NCBI GenBank assembly: GCA_018660825.1
Contig: JABJJO010000030.1
Location: forward strand, 1-49,359
Direction: 5' to 3'
Origin: Planctomycetaceae bacterium
GTDB taxonomy: Bacteria; Planctomycetota; Planctomycetia; Pirellulales; Pirellulaceae
DNA: 49,359 bases
Positions 28,017-38,249 of this stretch are shown piece after piece (within the stretch, counting starts at the first letter, position 1; the number at the start of each line of letters is the position of its first letter). The position numbers and the translations under genes were made by a program. A model generated the notes under the pieces. It was not told the origin of the DNA, did not search any database, and saw only the letters and a program-made list of their open reading frames with translations.

Positions 28017-31000
28017 GTGAGGAACTCTCGCATTACGAGATGTTGTATTAATATGTTCAAGCGTAAATTCCGCATCCTTTCACAGAATTTGAAAACATCC
28101 TTATTATTCACTTTGCTTGTCACCCAAGCTCTGGCACTAATGGTGACAAATATATCTGTGGTCTGTGCTCAAGAAGAAGCTGCCGATGGCATTATTAAAC
28201 TCAAAGAAAAGTCATCCCAGGACGCCTTAGATGTCTACTCCGACGCGGCCAAATTCCAAAATGGTGCTAAGTTTGAAATTGCCGTTGAGGAATGGGAAGG
28301 GTTTCAAAAAGAATTCCAAGATGACCCCTTAGCTCCCAAAGCAATTTATTACTTGGGAATTTGTGCTTTACAACTGCAACAATATGATAAAGCGGCGAGT
28401 GCTTTTAAATTTACGGCAACACGATACGCACAGCATGACAGCACGGAGTCAGCATTGTTTTATTGGGGCCGCACGCGGTATGCGCAGGCCTCGTCGTTGC
28501 AAGATGATAAACAAAAACAAGCTCAACTTAAAACAGCTATTGGTGCATTTGAAAAACAGCTAGCCGCCTACGCCAAAGGCGCTTTGGCAGATCAGGCGTT
28601 GTACTTAATGGGTGAATCCCATTATGGCTTGGGCGACAAAATCGCTGCGATAAAGTCATACCAAGCGGTCGTCACGGGGTTCCCCAAATCCAAGCAGCGG
28701 GTAACAGCAGTCTATGCTTTGGGTGCTACGCTTGAAGAAGAAAAAAAATATGCTGAAGCAGGGCAGGCCTACGATATTTTCTTAGCGGAATTTCCAGAAG
28801 ATTCGCTCCGTACAGAAATACGAATGCGTAAGGCAGAGACAATTTTACAGGCTAAAAATTATAAAGAGGCCGCCGAAGTTTTTGGTGAAGTTGCTGCGGT
28901 GGAAGGTTACGCACTCGTAGACCACTCGCGGATGCGACAAGCATTTTGTTTGTTGCAGTTAAAGGAGCATGAGGCAGCCACAGTAATTTTCTCGGCAGTT
29001 TTAGCCGCTAAAGAAACAGCTGATTTTCACACCGAAGCTGCGGGGCATTTGCTGTCGATCTGTCGTGCACATATCAAGGACAAAAAGCATGACACGGCGC
29101 TTGAACTAGCGGACGCATTTATTGCAAACGTGACGGACGCTGAGTTAATTGTCCAAGTTAAACTCGTAGCTGCTGATGCACTTGATGGTCAGCAAAAATA
29201 TGCTGATTCACGCAAACGCTATATCGGAATTGTGGAGCAGCACAGCAAGCATGCCCTAGCGGCAGATGCTTTGTACTTTGCAACATTTGCTGCGTTACAG
29301 CTTAAACAGCACGATGATGTCATTGCCGACGCGAAAGCCTTTTTGGAGAAATATCCCAAACACGAATTTCAATCAGATGTCGCTAAACTCCTAGAAGAAT
29401 CGCGTATCCTTAAAAGTGCTGATTTATTTCAAGATAAAAAGCATGCTGAAGTCGTGGAAATACTGTCGGCGTCAATCAAGGATAGTCCGCAGGGTTCACG
29501 AGTGGTCGACAGTTTATTGCTTTTAGCACGATCTAGTGCCGCCTTGAAAGATATCGCCGCGGCGAAGGATTATGCCGCTCGGCTTATCAAAGAATTCCCT
29601 GAAAGCAAACTCGTTGCTGAAGCCCAGTTTCGTTTGGGAGAATATCATTATGGTGAAAAAGAATATGAACTGGCGATTAAACAGTACGCAACAGTCGTCA
29701 CAGACCATTCTGATTCCGTCTTTGTCGCTAATAGTCTTTATAGTCAAGCCTGGAGTGAAGTGCTGATTGGCAAACCAGATGTTGCTGAAACCACCTTCAC
29801 TGCTTTGATTGAAAAACATTCGGGGCACCAATTAGTGAGTGCGGCACTATTGGGTCGCGGCAAAGTTCGACGACAACAGAAAAAATTCAAAGAGGCGATT
29901 GAAGATTTAGATCGGTTCTTGTTAGCCAAACCGGACGTCGGCCAACAAGTGGATGCTTGGTCTGAAAAAGGCAAGTCGCAAATCGGTTTGCAGCAAAATG
30001 CAGCAGCGATTGAAACGTTCAATCTGCTGCTCACAGCCGATGCCAAGTATGCCGATGCCGATGCAATTCTTTATGAAATCGCGTTTGCTCAGCGAACGCT
30101 CGATAAACACGATGCGGCTAAAGCAACCTTTGCAAAACTTGTTGCCGCTCACGCTGGCAGTGCACTTGCCGGAGATGCCTATTTTCGGTTAGCGGAATAT
30201 CAATATGCCGCTGGACAATTCAAAGCAGCATTGGTTGACTACACCAAAGCAGCAGACAGTTCCCAGGGGTCCGACGCATTGAAAGAGAATATTCTTCACA
30301 AACAAGCATGGACACTTTATAAGTTAGATGATTTCAAAGGGAGTGCTGCTGGCTTTAAAGACCAAGTGTCCAAGTATGCTGCGGGTAGTTTTTTACACGA
30401 TGGCCAATTTATGTTCGCTGAATCTTTATACAAACTTGGTGATTTCCCAGCTGCTGCCGCTGCATTTGAGGCCATCACGCGTGTTACCTTTAAATCGCCC
30501 CAGCATCATTTATTAGTGAGGTTGCACGGTGGTAAAGCCGCTAGTGAACTTAAACAATATGAGCAATCGCGTAGCTTATTGCAACAAGTTGTGGACAGCG
30601 AAGACGAAGTGGCTGACGGTTATCGCCGCGAGGCACATTTTGAAATCGGCTGGACCTATGACCGAGAGAAAAATTACGAAAAAGCATTAGCGGCATTTGC
30701 AGCAGCCGGTCGTGATCGCGGTCACATTGGCGCTCGATCTCATTTTATGATCGGGGACATCGCCTTTAAACAAAAGCAATTTATTGATGCGATCAAACAA
30801 TTTGATCGGACCATTTTGCGGTTTGAAGATGAGAATGCTCCTGCCAATGTTAAGAAGTATCAAGCCTTAGCTGCATTTGAAGCTGGGCGGTGTAAAGAGG
30901 TATTGGCGGGAGTTGCCAAGGATGATAATAAACCGGACGAGATGCAGAAGCTCGTAGGCGAAGCAATTGCTTACTATCAAATGATTATTGATAAATACCC

Positions 31001-31061
31001 TGCGACTGAATTAGTGAAAAATGCGACGGAGCGTATCGTAGAACTAGGGAAAATAGAATAG
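28017..31061 (+). CDS. Large exported TPR protein (YbgF/BamD-like repeats)
   Basis: 1,014 residues from a GTG. An ATG at 28053 (residue 13) is an equally good start and gives a shorter signal peptide (MFKRKFRIL then a hydrophobic run, cut near VCAQ). Neither has a clear Shine-Dalgarno. After residue about 60 the protein is almost entirely 34-37-residue TPR hairpins of the tol-pal/YbgF and outer-membrane-assembly type (ALYFWGRTRYA, ALYLMGESHYGLGD, AQFRLGEYHYGEKEY, AYFRLAEYQYAAGQF and others), with a Lys-rich, evenly charged surface. It is followed 122 bases on by ExbB and ExbD, so a periplasmic scaffold for the second energisation cluster is likely. Confidence 0.92.
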   Translation: MRNSRITRCCINMFKRKFRILSQNLKTSLLFTLLVTQALALMVTNISVVCAQEEAADGIIKLKEKSSQDALDVYSDAAKFQNGAKFEIAVEEWEGFQKEFQDDPLAPKAIYYLGICALQLQQYDKAASAFKFTATRYAQHDSTESALFYWGRTRYAQASSLQDDKQKQAQLKTAIGAFEKQLAAYAKGALADQALYLMGESHYGLGDKIAAIKSYQAVVTGFPKSKQRVTAVYALGATLEEEKKYAEAGQAYDIFLAEFPEDSLRTEIRMRKAETILQAKNYKEAAEVFGEVAAVEGYALVDHSRMRQAFCLLQLKEHEAATVIFSAVLAAKETADFHTEAAGHLLSICRAHIKDKKHDTALELADAFIANVTDAELIVQVKLVAADALDGQQKYADSRKRYIGIVEQHSKHALAADALYFATFAALQLKQHDDVIADAKAFLEKYPKHEFQSDVAKLLEESRILKSADLFQDKKHAEVVEILSASIKDSPQGSRVVDSLLLLARSSAALKDIAAAKDYAARLIKEFPESKLVAEAQFRLGEYHYGEKEYELAIKQYATVVTDHSDSVFVANSLYSQAWSEVLIGKPDVAETTFTALIEKHSGHQLVSAALLGRGKVRRQQKKFKEAIEDLDRFLLAKPDVGQQVDAWSEKGKSQIGLQQNAAAIETFNLLLTADAKYADADAILYEIAFAQRTLDKHDAAKATFAKLVAAHAGSALAGDAYFRLAEYQYAAGQFKAALVDYTKAADSSQGSDALKENILHKQAWTLYKLDDFKGSAAGFKDQVSKYAAGSFLHDGQFMFAESLYKLGDFPAAAAAFEAITRVTFKSPQHHLLVRLHGGKAASELKQYEQSRSLLQQVVDSEDEVADGYRREAHFEIGWTYDREKNYEKALAAFAAAGRDRGHIGARSHFMIGDIAFKQKQFIDAIKQFDRTILRFEDENAPANVKKYQALAAFEAGRCKEVLAGVAKDDNKPDEMQKLVGEAIAYYQMIIDKYPATELVKNATERIVELGKIE

Positions 31062-31094
31062 TAATCAACGCCTAGGCATCGAAGTAGAATGATG

Positions 31095-31107
31095 TTAATG
31101 GCATTAA
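31095..31107. promoter_or_regulatory. 13-bp palindrome before the second ExbB gene
   Basis: TTAATG-G-CATTAA, a perfect palindrome in the 122-base gap between the TPR and ExbB genes. It might be a repressor site; chance occurrence in AT-rich sequence is possible. Confidence 0.25.
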
Positions 31108-31183
31108 TGTATGACTGAGGCACAGTTCAACCGACCATAAACGAATCGAGATCAGTCGAGACCACCAGAGAGGAATTCAGCGG

Positions 31184-32101
31184 ATGAAAATGTTATTTTC
31201 ACGACACGAGTTAAAACGAAGTGTCGTGTTGTTCAACATAATCGCGGGGTGCATAATTGCCGGTGCCATTTTTGTGCCCTTCGTACCACGGGTAGTCAAC
31301 GCTCAGGACGGTGCGGGTCCGACAGCCGGTGTTGAAGCGAACAATAGTGAAGCTGTTGGTAACGAAGCAGTTGTTGATGGCGAAGTTGCGACCGTCGAGG
31401 CTGAAGGGATTAATATATTCACGCTCGTTTTGCAGGGTGGTGCCTTTACGATTCCCATTGGGTTAATGTCTTTGATAACCGTGACGTTTGTGGTCGAACG
31501 ATCTATGGCGCTGCGTCGTGATCGGGTTATCCCCACCGGCCTGATTACAGAGTTGGGGGAATTAGCGGAGACTCAATCACGGTTTGATCCGCGGGCTGCC
31601 TATCGATTGTGTCAGCGATATCCTTCCGCAGCAGCGACGGTGATTCGCTCGATGCTCGTCAAGGTTGGGCGGCCTCAAGCAGAAGTAGACCGAGCAACGA
31701 CTGAGACAAGCGAGCGGGAAGCGGATCGATTGTACGGTAATATTCGCTGGTTGAATCTTTCCGCAGCAGTTTCACCGTTGCTCGGATTGCTGGGAACAGT
31801 TTGGGGGATGATTCAAGCGTTTCACGATACGACCGGATTGCCGGCGGGAGTCAATAAAGCGGATTTTCTAGCCGAAGGGATATATGTTGCGCTGGTAACC
31901 ACCCTTTGTGGATTAATGGTCGCAATTCCAGCTGCTGTTTTCTCACATTATCTAGAAGGGCGTTTGCAAAATCTGTTTCATGAAGTGGATGAATTGTTGT
32001 TTAGCTTAGCGCCTCAAATTGAACGCTTCGAAGGTCGTATGCGGTTTACCAATGCGGATGAAGATGCCGGCGAGCAAGACGATGATGGTGCGAGTGAATA
32101 A
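31184..32101 (+). CDS. MotA/TolQ/ExbB-family proton channel protein, second copy
   Basis: 305 residues. A signal-peptide-like N-terminal hydrophobic segment (about 12-36, ending near VNAQD) is followed by a short acidic linker, a membrane helix at about 82-105 (FTIPIGLMSLITVTFVV), a cytoplasmic loop and the family core at about 193-260 with LLGLLGTVWGMIQAF and a final hydrophobic helix. Shorter linker and different loop sequence from the copy at 6891, so the two are paralogues for separate machines. GAGAGGA lies nine bases upstream of the ATG. Confidence 0.93.
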   Translation: MKMLFSRHELKRSVVLFNIIAGCIIAGAIFVPFVPRVVNAQDGAGPTAGVEANNSEAVGNEAVVDGEVATVEAEGINIFTLVLQGGAFTIPIGLMSLITVTFVVERSMALRRDRVIPTGLITELGELAETQSRFDPRAAYRLCQRYPSAAATVIRSMLVKVGRPQAEVDRATTETSEREADRLYGNIRWLNLSAAVSPLLGLLGTVWGMIQAFHDTTGLPAGVNKADFLAEGIYVALVTTLCGLMVAIPAAVFSHYLEGRLQNLFHEVDELLFSLAPQIERFEGRMRFTNADEDAGEQDDDGASE

Positions 32102-32163
32102 GTTGTGAGTTGCGATAGTGAAGCAGGAATAATAAAAAATAAAAATAGCAGACTGACACGATC

Positions 32164-32577
32164 ATGGCGGTAAAAATAAAATCTAGTCGAGCACTTGGAA
32201 CACTCAACCTAACACCATTGATTGATGTCGTTTTCTTGCTATTGGTGTTCTTTCTCGTCGCCACTAGGTTTGCGGATGAAGATCGTGAGTTGGACGTATT
32301 GCTGCCATCTGCTAGCGAAGCTGCGGCTGTGACGGCCGAGCCGAACGAGCTAGCAATTAATATTTCAGAAACGGGTAGCTACTATATTGGTGGTCAGACG
32401 GTGGATGAAACCGGATTGTTGGCAATCCTTAATACCGCTGCCAGCAATAATCCAATTGGTCAAACGGTGATCATTCGAGCGGACCACCGAGTGCCGTTTC
32501 AGTTTGTGACGACGGCGATGAATTTGTGCAATTTAGCGGGCATTGAAGACTATACAATTGCAACAGATAAGGATTAA
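32164..32577 (+). CDS. ExbD/TolR-family protein of the second cluster
   Basis: 137 residues with the classical ExbD start LNLTPLIDVVFLLLVFF and membrane Asp21. This is much closer to textbook ExbD than the two GDIAFNL-type paralogues of cluster 1. The periplasmic domain has the LPSA, L-I-I-TG-YYIGG and VIIRADHRVPFQFV blocks that form the TonB-associated fold. It forms the channel with the adjacent ExbB. The next gene, 45 bases on, encodes the probable energised partner. Confidence 0.95.
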   Translation: MAVKIKSSRALGTLNLTPLIDVVFLLLVFFLVATRFADEDRELDVLLPSASEAAAVTAEPNELAINISETGSYYIGGQTVDETGLLAILNTAASNNPIGQTVIIRADHRVPFQFVTTAMNLCNLAGIEDYTIATDKD

Positions 32578-32622
32578 TTAGGAATCGAAGAAGCGGGCAT
32601 TACAGAAAATACGGAGCAGACA

Positions 32623-35600
32623 ATGGGTTCTACGAGCCAATTCGATAAGCCACAGCAAGGTTCGCAAAAACCTCGCCGTACGACGGTTCGTCGATATGTT
32701 CCGCGGCGGCGAGTTGTTTTTGACGAACAACAATGGCCCGTTAATATTGTTCTTGTTGTTCTCGGTGGATTTTTGATCGGTGGAATATTAGCGTATCAAC
32801 GATTTGATGACCCGCGATGGTACGCCAGTCCTTGGCTTTCCCTGACGTTGGTGCTGTTTTTAATTACAACGACCATTATGACCTTACGGATGATCGACAA
32901 CCGTAAGGTCAAACGGACGATGCAATTTTCGGTGGTCGTTTGCGCGATCGTGCACCTTGTGATGTTGATCTATTCCGTAGAAAGTATGATTTTCTCCAAA
33001 GGTTGGAATTCTCCGGTTGCCAATAAGCAACTAGTGCGGAAAAAGCAGCGAAAGCAGATGGAGTATCATCCCACGCCTCAACAGCAAGCTGACAAACCCG
33101 ATTTTCTCAAGCCGATTGATGCGGAAGTGCCGGAACCGACGCCGCCAGAAGTTGAGAAACAAGAGCAAGAAGATCCGGTAACTCCGGAACCCGTTCAGCA
33201 ACAACCACAACCGGATCCCCAACCTCAAGTCGAACCTGAGGTGGTGCGTAAAAATAGTTCGGCGGACAGTAGTATGGCGCGACAAAGTGATACATCTTCA
33301 CGGCTTACTAAGCGAGATGTGAAGATGCCTGAGACTCCACAAGTGACGGTTGATGTTTCGCAAAACACGGTCCGAAAACCATCTCAACCAAAGCAGGCGG
33401 AACCGACACGCCAAGTCGCTCGTAGCCAAAGCTCCACAACCGCTCAAAAGGTAACCATTCCCAAAGTTGTTGAAACTCCTGCTCAAGCCCAAGCTGCCAA
33501 TGTGCAGCGCGCGGTAACTGAGCCAAACCAAGAGTCGGTGGCAACTAATAACGCTTCACAAGCAACAACCAAACGGCAAACCTCTGAAAATCAAGAAGTT
33601 CCGAAAACACAAGTCCAGCCGCTGGAAAACCAACAAGCGACATCGCAGCGAACTCCACAGCCGCTGCAAGTTGTAAAAAATACGGCAGCTCGTCAACAAC
33701 AGACAGCGACACCTACTGTGCGCCCTCAACAGACACCACCGACGCCAACGATACCCGAAGTAACCAGCGCCGAGCCTGTAAAGCGGCAGTCTCCAATGGA
33801 GCGGCAAACGGTTCAAGCGAGTAGTCCTCAGCAGTCACGGACAACACCGCAGCCACAGAACCCAGTGGTCAAGCCCGTCGCCGTAACAGCACCCCAAACC
33901 TCAAAAACGGAACCGACTCCAGCTGAGCCGCAACCGAATCAGACGGCTCAAAAAGCGAATACCCAATCGCCGGCAGCCACTCCTAGTCCGCCAACGCCAC
34001 CCGCTGCTGCGGCAAATGCAGTCCCTGTTGCTGCACAACAATCCAATCGAGCGGTGACCAGTGCTAATGCGTCGAAGCCCAATTCGCAAGCGTCTCAAGT
34101 TTCACAGGTTACTAGAAATCGCTCAGCGGAATCGAGCGTGACGAATCCAGTGGTGACTGCGACTGCCCAACAGCGACCGACACAGCAAGCAATTGCAGCC
34201 GCGGCTCCCAATGCAGCTGCGGGCGCTGTTGCTCGAGCCAACACCAATCGCCGTTCCAATACAGCAAATAAATTGACATCGGTCCAGAATAATCCTCAGA
34301 CTCAAGTGAACAAGGGTTCGACAATTTCCCAGCGACGTGACAGTGCAAACCAAGTCAGTGCGACGAATACGAGCCAGAGTAATAATTCGCCACAACGCAG
34401 TAGTCGAGTAGCTGCGGCGACGGCTTCACCTACCAATGCGGATGTTCCGGCAAACTCCAGAAGTGTTGCCACTAACCAAAACTCGTCGCTTGATGCATCA
34501 AGTCGGGCGACTTCACGAGCTCAGCAAGGCACGAGCGGTGGCAAGACGGGGCGTAACCAATCAACCGCCGCCGCCGCGGCGGAAAGCAGCAGCGAAGTGT
34601 CGGCAACTGCGGCGAGCCGCGCTGAATCGACACGTAGTACCGCAGCCAACGCGGATTCGTCGTCAGATGTCGCCAGCGTACAAAGGAATCGTACACAAGC
34701 GAATGTGGCGTCTGCGATTCGCGCAGCAAACACGACCGCGGAGGCAATGTTGCTGGCATCCCGGCAGCCGGCAGAACAAACCTTGGATGCGTCGGCGGCG
34801 ACTGAACGCGCAGCTGCGGCCAACGCGGTAGCAAGCACTCAAAATGCGGCACAGGGTAGTGCAGCGGCGGATACTGGCGCACCGGCAGTACAAGCAGCAG
34901 ATCAATTCAGCCGAGCGGCTGGAGGGGGGCAACGTCAACTTAGCAACGAAGCAGATAACGCGGAAGTGGCCAGAAAAGTGACCGGCCAAAATTTTGAAGC
35001 GGTAGCAACTAACACGCAAGCCGAGGTGGCGGAATCGGTTGAAGGCTCCGCGGGGCAGACGGCTGCTGCTGCATTGACCGCAGATAATCAAACAGCGTCC
35101 AGAGCGGAGGCTGGTGCAGAACAGTCGTTGGTGGGTGATCGAGCGGAGAATCAATCGGAGCAGGAAGCGGGAGAAATGTCGGCGCAGATTGCTCAAAACG
35201 ATGTGCAACGCAACGACTCCAGTCGTAGCGGGCCCGCCGGTGCCGCGAATCCCTTAAATGAAGATGAAATGTCGACTGCGGCTGCAGCTGGTCGAAGTGC
35301 CACTCAACGAAAAAATGCGGCGCTTAATGCGAGTGCTGTTGATGCTGTCGCAGCAGTAGCACAGCCGGGAACGGGTCCGATGAATCCGGCAACGGCTGCT
35401 ACAGCGGAATCCGGAGTGTCCAGTGCGGCGACGGATGTGCAAAGAGCTGAAACGGGTGCGGGGTCGGTAGCAGCGATGTCGGAGAGTTCGCAAACGGATG
35501 GCCCTCAAGGTCAGCAGGTAGCAGCCGCCGCGACAACTCGAGCGCAGCAGTCCTCGAGTGCAGACGCTGCGATGGGGGAGACCGTCGCCGGCGGTGGAAC

Positions 35601-37365
35601 TGCGTCGCCACAACGAGCAAGCGAAGGGACGCCTATTAATGCACTTGCGGCAGTGCCAGCAGTGATGGTTGAAGGTGCCAATGAATCAGCGGGTGCAACA
35701 GCGGGTGTGGAAGTTGCTGCTCAAGATGATGCAGTCGGAAAAATCGCTGGTGGGGTGCAAGCGCCACCAACGGTGGGCCCTGTGGGAGCTGCTGCCGGAG
35801 CAGAAGTTGCTCAAGGGGAGAATAATATTGAAGCGGGGTCTGTAGGTAATCGCCGTGAACAATCGACGGCCGCTGTGGGAGACACAGAAACTACTGGGCA
35901 ACTTAGCGGTAGTCAGATTGCTCGTAGCCAGCAAGGCGGAGCACTAGCGGGGGATTTAGGAGCTGTCGCGGTTGCTGTTCCCGAGTCGGCGGATACCGGT
36001 GTACCGTCTCCGGGCAATGTGGAAACGAGTGAAGCAGGGGGCGAGTATACAGTGGGGCCAGTATCACAAGCATTTGGAGAAGCGGCCCCGGTGAAAGTTG
36101 AAGCGACTGAGGGCCTCGGTGGATTAGGTGAGAAGATCGCAGCTGATGCAGGAATTGCAGATCGGCGCGCGAGTACTGTTAATGCAACGATTCAACTGAA
36201 TACTTCGCGGTTTAATCGTGACACACTAGCGGGACTTCCTGCGATTGACGTACATGCGACGATGGCTAAGAAATCATTCGATGGGCGGATGAATCGCGAA
36301 GGTGGCGGAAATGGTTCGGCGGGTCCCGAAACAGAAGAAGCGATTGAATTAGGTTTGGCTTTTCTAGCGAAATTCCAGAAGCGTGACGGTAGTTGGACGC
36401 TGCAACAATTTGCAGCGATCGACGGAGTGTCGGCGATCGAAAGTGATACTGCTGCAACGGCGCTGGCAATGCTGGCCTTTCAAGGAGCAGGGTATAATCA
36501 CCAAGAACACCAATATAAAGAAGTTGTGGCGGGTGCATTGAATTTTATCGTAACTCACCAGACAACTAGCGGTGATTACTATCTGCCACAAGGCACGCCT
36601 GAGAATCGAGTGGCCCGATTGTACGGTCATGCGATTGCGACACTGGCAATGTGTGAAGCTTATGGCATGACACAAGATCCGGACATTAAAGACTCAGTGC
36701 AACAAGCGTTGAATTTTATTGTGCAAGCACAACATACCGAACGTGGTGGTTGGCGATATACACCGGGACGCGAATCCGATACTTCGGTGACGGGGTGGAT
36801 GTTGATGGCGATTGAAAGTGGTCGCCGTGCGGGACTGGAGGTCCCTGAACAAACCTTTGAGGGTATTCAGAATTGGTTAGATACTTCGCAAGATAAAGAG
36901 CAACCGTTTATGTATTCTTACAATCCTTATGCACCAGTTAACACTCGGCAGGCGCAAGGTCGCAGCGCTACGAAGACGATGACCAGTGTCGGATTGTTGA
37001 TGCGGCTATATTTAGGTTGGGACAAAGACGATGATAATTCAATAGCGGGTGCTCGGTATCTACAAGAAAACTTGCCCTCGATCCGTAAAACTCGTGACGC
37101 GTCTTTGCGAGATACATACTACTGGTACTATGCAACGCAGTTTATGTATCACATGGGCGGAGAACATTGGAAAAAATGGAATGACCGCTTACACCCATTG
37201 TTGGTAAACGGACAGGAAAAAAATGGCGAGTTAACTGGCAGTTGGGACCCGCGCAATCCTGTTCCTGATCGTTGGGGACCGCACGCCGGAAGATTATACG
37301 TGACCACGATGAATCTGTTATCGCTCGAAGTACATTACCGACATTTGCCGTTGTATAACGATTAA
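32623..37365 (+). CDS. Giant membrane protein: three TM helices, very long low-complexity linker, prenyltransferase-like alpha/alpha toroid
   Basis: 1,580 residues. The basic N-terminus is followed by hydrophobic segments at about 40-61, 70-88 and 100-118. Residues about 140-1200 are low complexity: first Pro/Gln/Glu/Thr-rich with TonB-like alternating acidic-Pro and Gln-Pro runs, then Ala/Ser/Asn/Gln-rich, then Ala/Gly/Glu/Val-rich. From about 1235 the chain folds as a terpenoid-cyclase/protein-prenyltransferase toroid, with repeats such as GLAFLAKFQKRDGSW, LNFIVQAQHTERGGWRY and SDTSVTGWMLMAIES. The DxDD proton-donor motif of squalene cyclases is absent, so a binding or scaffold role is more likely than cyclisation. 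Gene order after ExbB/ExbD suggests it is the energised arm, an analogue of TonB; this is inference. Confidence 0.9.
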   Translation: MGSTSQFDKPQQGSQKPRRTTVRRYVPRRRVVFDEQQWPVNIVLVVLGGFLIGGILAYQRFDDPRWYASPWLSLTLVLFLITTTIMTLRMIDNRKVKRTMQFSVVVCAIVHLVMLIYSVESMIFSKGWNSPVANKQLVRKKQRKQMEYHPTPQQQADKPDFLKPIDAEVPEPTPPEVEKQEQEDPVTPEPVQQQPQPDPQPQVEPEVVRKNSSADSSMARQSDTSSRLTKRDVKMPETPQVTVDVSQNTVRKPSQPKQAEPTRQVARSQSSTTAQKVTIPKVVETPAQAQAANVQRAVTEPNQESVATNNASQATTKRQTSENQEVPKTQVQPLENQQATSQRTPQPLQVVKNTAARQQQTATPTVRPQQTPPTPTIPEVTSAEPVKRQSPMERQTVQASSPQQSRTTPQPQNPVVKPVAVTAPQTSKTEPTPAEPQPNQTAQKANTQSPAATPSPPTPPAAAANAVPVAAQQSNRAVTSANASKPNSQASQVSQVTRNRSAESSVTNPVVTATAQQRPTQQAIAAAAPNAAAGAVARANTNRRSNTANKLTSVQNNPQTQVNKGSTISQRRDSANQVSATNTSQSNNSPQRSSRVAAATASPTNADVPANSRSVATNQNSSLDASSRATSRAQQGTSGGKTGRNQSTAAAAAESSSEVSATAASRAESTRSTAANADSSSDVASVQRNRTQANVASAIRAANTTAEAMLLASRQPAEQTLDASAATERAAAANAVASTQNAAQGSAAADTGAPAVQAADQFSRAAGGGQRQLSNEADNAEVARKVTGQNFEAVATNTQAEVAESVEGSAGQTAAAALTADNQTASRAEAGAEQSLVGDRAENQSEQEAGEMSAQIAQNDVQRNDSSRSGPAGAANPLNEDEMSTAAAAGRSATQRKNAALNASAVDAVAAVAQPGTGPMNPATAATAESGVSSAATDVQRAETGAGSVAAMSESSQTDGPQGQQVAAAATTRAQQSSSADAAMGETVAGGGTASPQRASEGTPINALAAVPAVMVEGANESAGATAGVEVAAQDDAVGKIAGGVQAPPTVGPVGAAAGAEVAQGENNIEAGSVGNRREQSTAAVGDTETTGQLSGSQIARSQQGGALAGDLGAVAVAVPESADTGVPSPGNVETSEAGGEYTVGPVSQAFGEAAPVKVEATEGLGGLGEKIAADAGIADRRASTVNATIQLNTSRFNRDTLAGLPAIDVHATMAKKSFDGRMNREGGGNGSAGPETEEAIELGLAFLAKFQKRDGSWTLQQFAAIDGVSAIESDTAATALAMLAFQGAGYNHQEHQYKEVVAGALNFIVTHQTTSGDYYLPQGTPENRVARLYGHAIATLAMCEAYGMTQDPDIKDSVQQALNFIVQAQHTERGGWRYTPGRESDTSVTGWMLMAIESGRRAGLEVPEQTFEGIQNWLDTSQDKEQPFMYSYNPYAPVNTRQAQGRSATKTMTSVGLLMRLYLGWDKDDDNSIAGARYLQENLPSIRKTRDASLRDTYYWYYATQFMYHMGGEHWKKWNDRLHPLLVNGQEKNGELTGSWDPRNPVPDRWGPHAGRLYVTTMNLLSLEVHYRHLPLYND

Positions 37366-37392
37366 TATGGACCACGAATTGATCCCGTTGGT

Positions 37393-37441
37393 TTGTAACT
37401 CTTACAATGTAACGCTTACCAATGGGTTGTAATAATTACAA
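37393..37441. promoter_or_regulatory. Three 15-bp palindromic sites, candidate activator-binding region
   Basis: Two perfect copies of TTGTAA-N3-TTACAA at 37393-37407 and 37427-37441, and a third copy with one mismatch per arm at 37407-37421. They lie about 100-145 bp upstream of the -24/-12 promoter, the usual position of enhancer sites for sigma-54 activators. They overlap no gene. The binding protein is unknown. Confidence 0.65.
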
Positions 37442-37452
37442 TTATTGGGATT

Positions 37453-37473
37453 TCGTCTATGAGACGATTTTTT
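37453..37473 (+). terminator. Rho-independent terminator of the second ExbB cluster
   Basis: TCGTCT-ATG-AGACGA, a perfect six-pair stem with a three-base loop followed by six T's, 88 bases after the giant toroid gene. Confidence 0.75.
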
Positions 37474-37537
37474 AGGATCCTGTTAAAACCCTGTAATACT
37501 CGACATCTGAGAAGTTATTCTGGAATGCTCTAATGTT

Positions 37538-37552
37538 TGGCACGGTAGTTGC
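37538..37552 (+). promoter_or_regulatory. Sigma-54 (RpoN) -24/-12 promoter
   Basis: TGGCACG-GTAG-TTGC followed by A. It matches the sigma-54 consensus TGGCACG-N4-TTGCW at every position, with the -24 GG and -12 GC exactly ten bases apart. It is in a gene-free gap, points along the + strand and predicts transcription from about 37564. No protein gene on that strand begins before the terminator at 37744. Confidence 0.85.
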
Positions 37553-37563
37553 ATTAATACTAT

Positions 37564-37783
37564 TCCAGTAAAACAACGATCTGTTTTGGTTAGCTTTGCC
37601 GAGTTAGCCGGCAGCATCACCACCAGCTAACCTGGTGCGAAAATGTTTGATTTACTGTGGATCTAAGAAAAATTACTATCAGTGTGCGATAGTCGAAAAA
37701 ACATCCCTCATGGGGATCGATTCAGTTTTCCACAGTATACAAGAAGGCCTGATTGGATTCCCGCATCCAACCGGGCCTTTTTT
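37564..37783 (+). ncRNA. Predicted sigma-54-dependent small RNA, about 220 nt
   Basis: Bounded by a consensus sigma-54 promoter and a strong intrinsic terminator. It folds well by eye. An 8-bp stem (37588-37595 with 37625-37632) encloses a 5-bp hairpin (37597-37601 with 37609-37613). A 9-bp long-range stem (37653-37661 with 37729-37737) encloses two hairpins (37675-37680/37688-37693 and 37703-37707/37713-37717). The terminator stem follows. The only ORFs are a 7-codon one and a 27-codon one that runs through the terminator, neither with a ribosome-binding site. It does not resemble tmRNA, RNase P, SRP or 6S RNA to me. By analogy with sigma-54-driven RNAs such as Qrr or CrcZ a regulatory role is likely. 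Target unknown. Confidence 0.7.
37744..37783 (+). terminator. Strong rho-independent terminator of the predicted small RNA
   Basis: AAGGCCTG pairs with CGGGCCTT (one G-U pair), then a single A-C mismatch, then TTGGAT pairs with ATCCAA around the six-base loop TCCCGC. A run of six T's ends at 37783. It may also stop transcription from the opposite-strand gene ending at 37815, but that side has no T-run. Confidence 0.92.
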
Positions 37784-37814
37784 AATGCGCTGACTCATAA
37801 CGCAGAACTAACGA

Positions 37815-38249
37815 CTAGGCGTTATTTAAGAGGCTCGTCGCTAACGCTTGAAAAATGATTTCATTTTCGTCGTATTCACGACTTTCTGCTTGGATGACGA
37901 ACATGTAGGTGGCATCGTTTTTGAATATAGTTACGGCTGTCATGCAAAGAATGAAGTCGAGATAATTAAAGAACATGCGAATTCCAACGAGTTCTTCATC
38001 GCCGACGTTGATTTGATAATTAGCTGTTTCTTCGTGGTCTTCGTACTCGGTATGGATAGCTCGTACCGCTTGCCCGATCAATTCCTCGGTGTCCATTTGG
38101 CCATCATATCGATAAACAGACCACAGAATCGTTCCCTCATTTTGCAACGTTACACTTTGACAGATCGCCGAGTCGTTTTGTTGTTCAATGATCTTCCAGT
38201 TTTCAGGATACAGAAATTTTAGTTCAGCGTGTTCAAACGTTTGCGGCAT
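37815..38249 (-). CDS. Small hypothetical protein with DcrB/PsbP-like pattern
   Basis: 144 residues, no signal peptide. The order of short strands (AELKFLYPENWKII, CQSVTLQNEGTILWSVYRYDG, DELVGIRMFFNYLDFILCMTAVTIF, YMFVIQAESREYDENEIIFQALATSL) with a closing helix is like DcrB or PsbP-type alpha/beta folds and like many small planctomycete proteins that begin with 'F-YPenW'. I would not assign a function. It is isolated: the small RNA terminator lies downstream and the TPR lipoprotein is divergent from it. Confidence 0.75.
   Translation of the reverse strand: MPQTFEHAELKFLYPENWKIIEQQNDSAICQSVTLQNEGTILWSVYRYDGQMDTEELIGQAVRAIHTEYEDHEETANYQINVGDEELVGIRMFFNYLDFILCMTAVTIFKNDATYMFVIQAESREYDENEIIFQALATSLLNNA

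Follow-up and report, generated by a model that had tools for sequence, protein, structure and literature searches.

The window analysed here is a stretch of 49,359 nt from contig JABJJO010000030.1 of a Planctomycetaceae bacterium (GCA_018660825.1), which belongs to the family Pirellulaceae in the order Pirellulales. At one end of a row of genes encoding a TPR protein, ExbB, ExbD and a 1580-aa protein (28017-37365) lies a gap without ORFs of 60 aa. The original prediction placed a small RNA gene with its own sigma-54 promoter in this gap between two genes, which is confirmed as an observation of the locus, and its interpretation as a sigma-54-dependent small RNA (sRNA) is supported. The criteria applied for sigma-54-dependent regulatory RNAs are a -24/-12 promoter, an activator site, and a noncoding, structured, self-terminated RNA. 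The features of the locus are as follows, with the basis for each:

32623-37365, plus strand: neighbour gene, outside the RNA unit, for a 1580-aa protein adjoining the ExbB and ExbD genes (position).
37394-37406, no strand assigned: palindrome TGTAACTCTTACA, candidate activator (enhancer) site 1 (equivalent in 7/7 aligned same-genus loci).
37408-37420, no strand assigned: imperfect third palindrome TGTAACGCTTACC (not kept in relatives).
37428-37440, no strand assigned: palindrome TGTAATAATTACA, candidate activator site 2 (equivalent in 7/7 same-genus loci).
37538-37553, plus strand: -24/-12 promoter TGGCACG-GTAG-TTGCA, TGGCACGGTAGTTGCA (exact consensus; -24/-12 upstream of 48/48 homologues).
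37564-37783, plus strand: predicted sRNA of about 220 nt (fold z -4.2; recovered by models R1, R2 and R3; start inferred).
37578-37637, plus strand: 5' domain, hairpins 37578-37618 and 37621-37637 (lineage-specific, different outside the genus).
37655-37735, plus strand: core, in which P1 (37655-37661/37729-37735) closes two inner hairpins (fold and covariation).
37662-37667 and 37723-37728, plus strand: conserved core loop strands TCTAAG and CAGTTT, respectively (conservation).
37675-37693, plus strand: core hairpin P2, 37675-37680/37688-37693 (double changes at 6/6 pairs in 48 sequences).
37703-37717, plus strand: hairpin P3, 37703-37707/37713-37717 (predicted fold; outside the R2/R3 structure and not counted).
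37744-37783, plus strand: intrinsic terminator and U-tract (double changes at 14/15 pairs in 48 sequences).
37815-38249, minus strand: neighbour gene, outside the RNA unit, for a 144-aa PsbP/DcrB/Mog1-like protein (homologue beside the RNA in 26/41 regions).

The claim of a -24/-12 promoter at the RpoN consensus is borne out: nowhere else in the window than at TGGCACGGTAGTTGCA is TGGCACG-N4-TTGCA matched in full. Allowing two mismatches gives 5 matches against 6.2 expected from shuffles, so a looser promoter match would carry no meaning. Across the 4.94-Mb genome there are six exact matches and none to the reversed control, and the genome encodes rpoN (Sigma54_AID). The transcription start at about 37564 is inferred from the -24 element. 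Another of the exact elements in this genome (L005, C200:57265-57280) precedes a gene for a Peripla_BP_5-type binding protein, interpreted here as part of a urea/amide-type transporter; this suggests that nitrogen uptake is controlled by sigma-54.

Counted from the inferred start, the 220 nt fold with a minimum free energy of -70.6 kcal/mol, far below the mean of -50.8 for shuffled sequences (z -4.2, 0/200 shuffles). Both the perfect 9-bp helix spanning 67 nt (37653-37661/37729-37737) and the long intrinsic terminator that had been described are present; a simple terminator scan does not list the latter (37744-37783), probably owing to its internal mismatch. No ORF of at least 15 codons both starts and stops inside the RNA, as expected if it has no credible reading frame. 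The core consensus reads roughly CCGTGAATCTTAG, P2, P3 (which is not in the model) and CCAGTTTTTCACGG, followed by the terminator. P3-like hairpins can be seen by eye in many homologues, with shifts in register. Within the core loop TCTWA is predominantly unpaired (mean 0.77-0.86), and every position of TCTWAG except W is at least 94% conserved; the two T residues facing it are 98-100% conserved and also mostly unpaired. The TCTWAG strand is altered in genomes G347 and G042.

A blastn search of 60 genomes, that of the source included, located the stretch in six of the eight remaining members of the genus; the 51 genomes from outside the genus gave no match. Alignment of the six same-genus homologues shows that they keep the promoter, the two palindromes, the RNA body and the terminator, and a covariance model recovers the RNA in these six genomes and not in three other records. 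More distant copies were found with covariance models. R1, built from seven sequences, matches 14 of 241 family genomes, including 7 genomes in 5 other genera. At E<=1e-6 the core model R2 matches 37 of the 241 family genomes and, at the level of the order, 60 genomes out of 396, spread over 14 families; the two samples overlap, and there is one match per genome at this threshold. Relaxing the threshold to E<=1e-3 raises these counts to 48/241 and 79/396, respectively, with most of the weak matches unopened. Of the 396 order genomes, 317 have no match at E<=1e-3, and a further 19 have only matches weaker than 1e-6. The only matches outside the order, eight weak ones from a phylum sample of 392 genomes that also includes genomes of the order, were rejected as plain terminators without the core or a -24/-12 element, and for this reason only matches at E<=1e-6 were counted. 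Searches of more than 40 genomes were run with stricter filters. A laxer search of 40 order genomes lacking an E<=1e-6 match recovered four real copies (G125, G149, G120 and G202) among 12 loci opened, and thus the model undercounts. Many complete genomes of the order nonetheless gave nothing convincing even under the laxer filters, and the distribution within the order is patchy.

Covariation was assessed in two alignments. In a plain MAFFT alignment of 14 sequences (18 candidate rows minus 4 antisense terminators), double changes are found at 16 of the 28 core pairs and 97.7% of cells are paired; 0/500 shuffles matched the observed values on four measures, and 43/500 did so on the fifth, the number of pair types. 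With 48 sequences, double changes reach 26 of 28 pairs with 96.2% of cells paired, and no shuffle out of 500 matches on any of the five measures. Because the latter alignment had been fitted to the R2 structure, its pairing figures are biased upwards; slid controls on the same alignment reach at most 50.6% pairing. A lack of both compensatory stem changes and -24/-12 elements in homologous gaps had been named in advance as grounds for refutation, and the prediction passed this test with loci from 9 families of the order.

A coding check of 13 of the 48 homologues found 5 without any ORF of 15 codons and 8 with some ORF of 15-55 codons, varying in length and place. A GTG-[GA]AT-CTN-AG frame recurs among those bearing ORFs, because the core DNA itself is conserved. 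A small coding role for the RNA is unlikely, but not formally excluded. With that reservation the sRNA meets the criterion of a noncoding, structured, self-terminated RNA, and, at the level of sequence, it is seen to be maintained by base pairing and not by a reading frame.

The promoter and the palindromes lie outside the core model with which the 48 loci were found, and their presence at these loci is therefore independent evidence. The best -24/-12 score is at least 17.7 in 48/48 core-found loci (none ambiguous) against 29 of 742 control windows. Over these 48 loci the predicted length of the RNA ranges from roughly 140 to 360 nt. The score is an ad hoc weighted match, computed for the highest-scoring site within 330 nt; owing to that choice, retention of GG and GC in all 48 is partly selected, and the comparison with control windows is the fair figure. 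A -24/-12 site is also found at 7 of 8 further loci, the core in G079 having none within 330 nt. The converse test, with a composite pattern of promoter letters only, gave 24 matches in the 396 genomes, one in each genome (5 of them from the genus of the source), and 2 for the reversed control. The RNA core lies downstream at 22 of the 24: 19 are at RNAs with E<=1e-6, the match in G071 is at an RNA with E 5e-4 that was confirmed by eye, and the core is also present in G065 and G331. There is no RNA at the match in G158, and only a 5' domain at that in G030. The -24/-12 criterion is thus met. As a separate observation, the 5' domains of genus g23 (L077, L078, L079, L080 and L084) share a stretch resembling GGCCCG-GCGGAGCTAGGT, and it is a 5' domain of this type that stands behind the promoter of G030, with the core absent.

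The palindromes at 37394-37406 and 37428-37440 (conserved) and at 37408-37420 (imperfect) had been missed in the original prediction. The two conserved ones are exact TGTAA-N3-TTACA sequences whose starts precede the promoter by 144 and 110 nt, the position at which an enhancer-binding activator would sit. TGTAA-N3-TTACA occurs at 6 places in the genome (8 for the control), two of them these; the remaining four lie within predicted reading frames. Among the six exact -24/-12 sites of the genome, only that of the sRNA has palindromes within 250 nt. Across the order, 32 of 48 loci carry a strict palindrome (TGYAA-N3-TTACA and its mirror form) at a distance of 60-160 nt before the promoter, compared with 2 out of 2352 control windows; of the 8 further loci opened later, 2 carry one. 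It is absent from the other 16 and 6, respectively. The activator-site criterion is fulfilled at the level of sequence alone. The site looks dedicated to the sRNA within the strictness of the pattern used, and looser sites elsewhere are not excluded. Taken together, sequence comparison shows joint conservation of promoter, upstream sites, fold and terminator as a unit in many families of the order.

In the source genome the RNA unit (37366-37814) is inverted with respect to both flanking genes, relative to G002, G003, G004, G006 and G008, while being intact and oriented as in G012 and G253 of genus g5; G001 has Ns on one side of the unit. The palindromes, the promoter and the RNA have travelled as one block, an argument that the unit is self-contained. 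The neighbouring gene of about 145 aa, where kept (26 of 41 regions, several of them short contigs), is usually just upstream of the RNA and on its strand. Its 144-aa product here has a Pfam PsbP match below the cut-off (E 0.025) and an AF2 model with pLDDT 83.8 from 6 sequences, for which the PDB fold matches are SciW, PsbP and DcrB (TM about 0.4-0.6). A role for this protein as an RNA chaperone was considered and set aside, as the modelled fold appears to resemble PsbP/DcrB/Mog1 proteins instead; to our knowledge this fold is not known as RNA-binding. The 1580-aa protein on the other side has no Pfam match at E<=0.1.

The Rfam search proposed for the locus returned no match at gathering score, either in the window or in 27 homologue loci, and the 5 matches that appeared when the locus was searched under lax settings all have E>=1.3 and lie below gathering. 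CrcZ of Pseudomonas (CbrB/sigma-54) is a sigma-54-driven, repeat-rich sponge, GlmY is similar in length to the sRNA described here, and 6S RNA forms one long rod with a central bubble. The sRNA differs from CrcZ and GlmY in having no Rfam match, on which ground GlmY/GlmZ membership was rejected. An identity with 6S RNA was rejected because the 5' domain is separate, the core has three helices and is followed by a terminator, and again no Rfam match was found. GlmY does share a sigma-54-type promoter with the sRNA: in Escherichia coli and relatives, its stronger promoter is sigma-54-dependent and needs the response-regulator activator QseF (PMC7073468). The Qrr sRNAs of Vibrionaceae (LuxO/sigma-54; PMC10162802) resemble the locus in combining an sRNA gene, a sigma-54 promoter and two upstream 13-bp palindromic activator sites, and the 5-3-5 layout of TGYAA-N3-TTACA is like that of the LuxO site TTGCAWWWTGCAA. 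Unlike Qrr, the sRNA has no Rfam match, its sites have other half-site letters (TGYAA-N3-TTACA, not LuxO TTGCAWWWTGCAA) and it is found in another phylum; membership of the Qrr family was therefore rejected, and no quorum role is implied. Sigma-54-driven sRNAs are a known class, and the sRNA looks built like them while belonging to none by Rfam.

No report of such an RNA in planctomycetes was found in the open-access papers searched, and within that scope the original remark that none with this structure was known there holds. The Rhodopirellula-1 motif of Weinberg 2010 is a candidate RNA listed for Planctomycetes and Proteobacteria, as probably cis-regulatory and without an Rfam accession (PMC2864571, Table 1); identity with the sRNA is not excluded. 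A 2022 count gives 8 annotated sRNAs for the whole PVC group (PMC9029176). The main text of a 2025 sigma-54 regulon survey covering the class never uses the terms "small RNA", "sRNA" or "non-coding" (PMC12316311).

Five full sigma-54 activator genes and two weak partial matches were found in the source genome, which is 96.6% complete. L021 and L023 are response regulators, each preceded by an ORF that reads by eye like a histidine kinase. In the sigma-54 contact loop, GAFTGA is replaced by GAFTDA in L021 and L025, and L022 has GSFTGA. The sigma-54 activators of Pirellula were reportedly the subject of work by Studholme and Dixon in 2004. No activator gene was found near the RNA in 41 regions (several of them short contigs), except one 9.7 kb away in G051.

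The locus is very probably a free-standing gene for a sigma-54-dependent regulatory RNA, with transcription, RpoN dependence, activator and targets all inferred, and the best reading is that it represents a new family of sigma-54 RNAs, with an activator site that seems to be dedicated to the RNA. A signal would activate one of the five sigma-54 activators, which would bind the tandem TGTAA-N3-TTACA sites ahead of the -24/-12 element and loop onto RpoN-RNA polymerase, leading to a start at about 37564. The RNA of about 220 nt would end at the strong terminator and act in trans, by mRNA pairing or by protein binding, which cannot be separated at present.

One possibility, plausible and still short of an even chance, is a Qrr-like antisense sRNA in which an exposed segment pairs with target mRNAs, silencing or exposing ribosome sites. 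The largely unpaired state of TCTWA and the high conservation of TCTWAG are compatible with this. In 20 of 48 RNAs GACCC is also found less than 80 nt from the start, compared with 5.6 expected under mononucleotide shuffling, and CCCGC in the terminator loop of 26 of 48. However, GACCC is missing from the genus of the source and related loci are not independent, C-rich loops could be usual for terminators of the group, and the most conserved unpaired bases lie on both internal-loop strands between covarying helices, which is more like a folded binding site. Equally tentative is a protein-binding or decoy RNA similar to GlmY or CsrB/CrcZ, with a folded core that would capture a protein or present one. 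An internal loop that hardly varies, in which TCTWAG faces TT between covarying helices, would fit this; yet no partner is identified, and the conserved neighbour has a PsbP/DcrB/Mog1-like fold. Since the near-invariant TCTWAG/T-tract loop strands lie within covarying helices, protein-assisted action, as with GlmY, appears about as likely as antisense pairing.

A cis-acting leader or attenuator, with the RNA as the 5' leader of a downstream gene, is improbable. A same-strand gene does follow soon after the terminator at some loci (for example at 113 nt in G021 and G237), but the next gene is convergent in the source genome, and a gene of the 1580-aa type is next and convergent in 5 of the 6 other same-genus loci; downstream genes vary among loci while the terminator is conserved. 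On account of the convergent next genes and the conserved terminator, this explanation was rejected. Least probable of all is coincidence, with a chance promoter match lying in a spacer whose fold is fortuitous, an explanation which could appeal to the weakness of a single-site consensus match alone and to a two-mismatch pattern no commoner than in shuffles, but was rejected given the covarying fold and the independent conservation of promoter and palindromes.

For a free-standing sigma-54-dependent regulatory RNA, a broader proposal can be made, although it is offered with less than even confidence: that the locus represents a signalling branch shared throughout the order, whose enhancer-binding activator controls one direct target in each genome, the sRNA, and that the three-helix core with its near-invariant TCTWAG/T-tract internal loop is a new RNA recognition module from early in the order. 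Regulation by sRNAs in planctomycetes is nearly unexplored. The fixed promoter, the distinctive activator site and the finding of only five activators make the circuit open to standard genetic dissection in a cultured relative; for annotation, the covariance model is usable as well.
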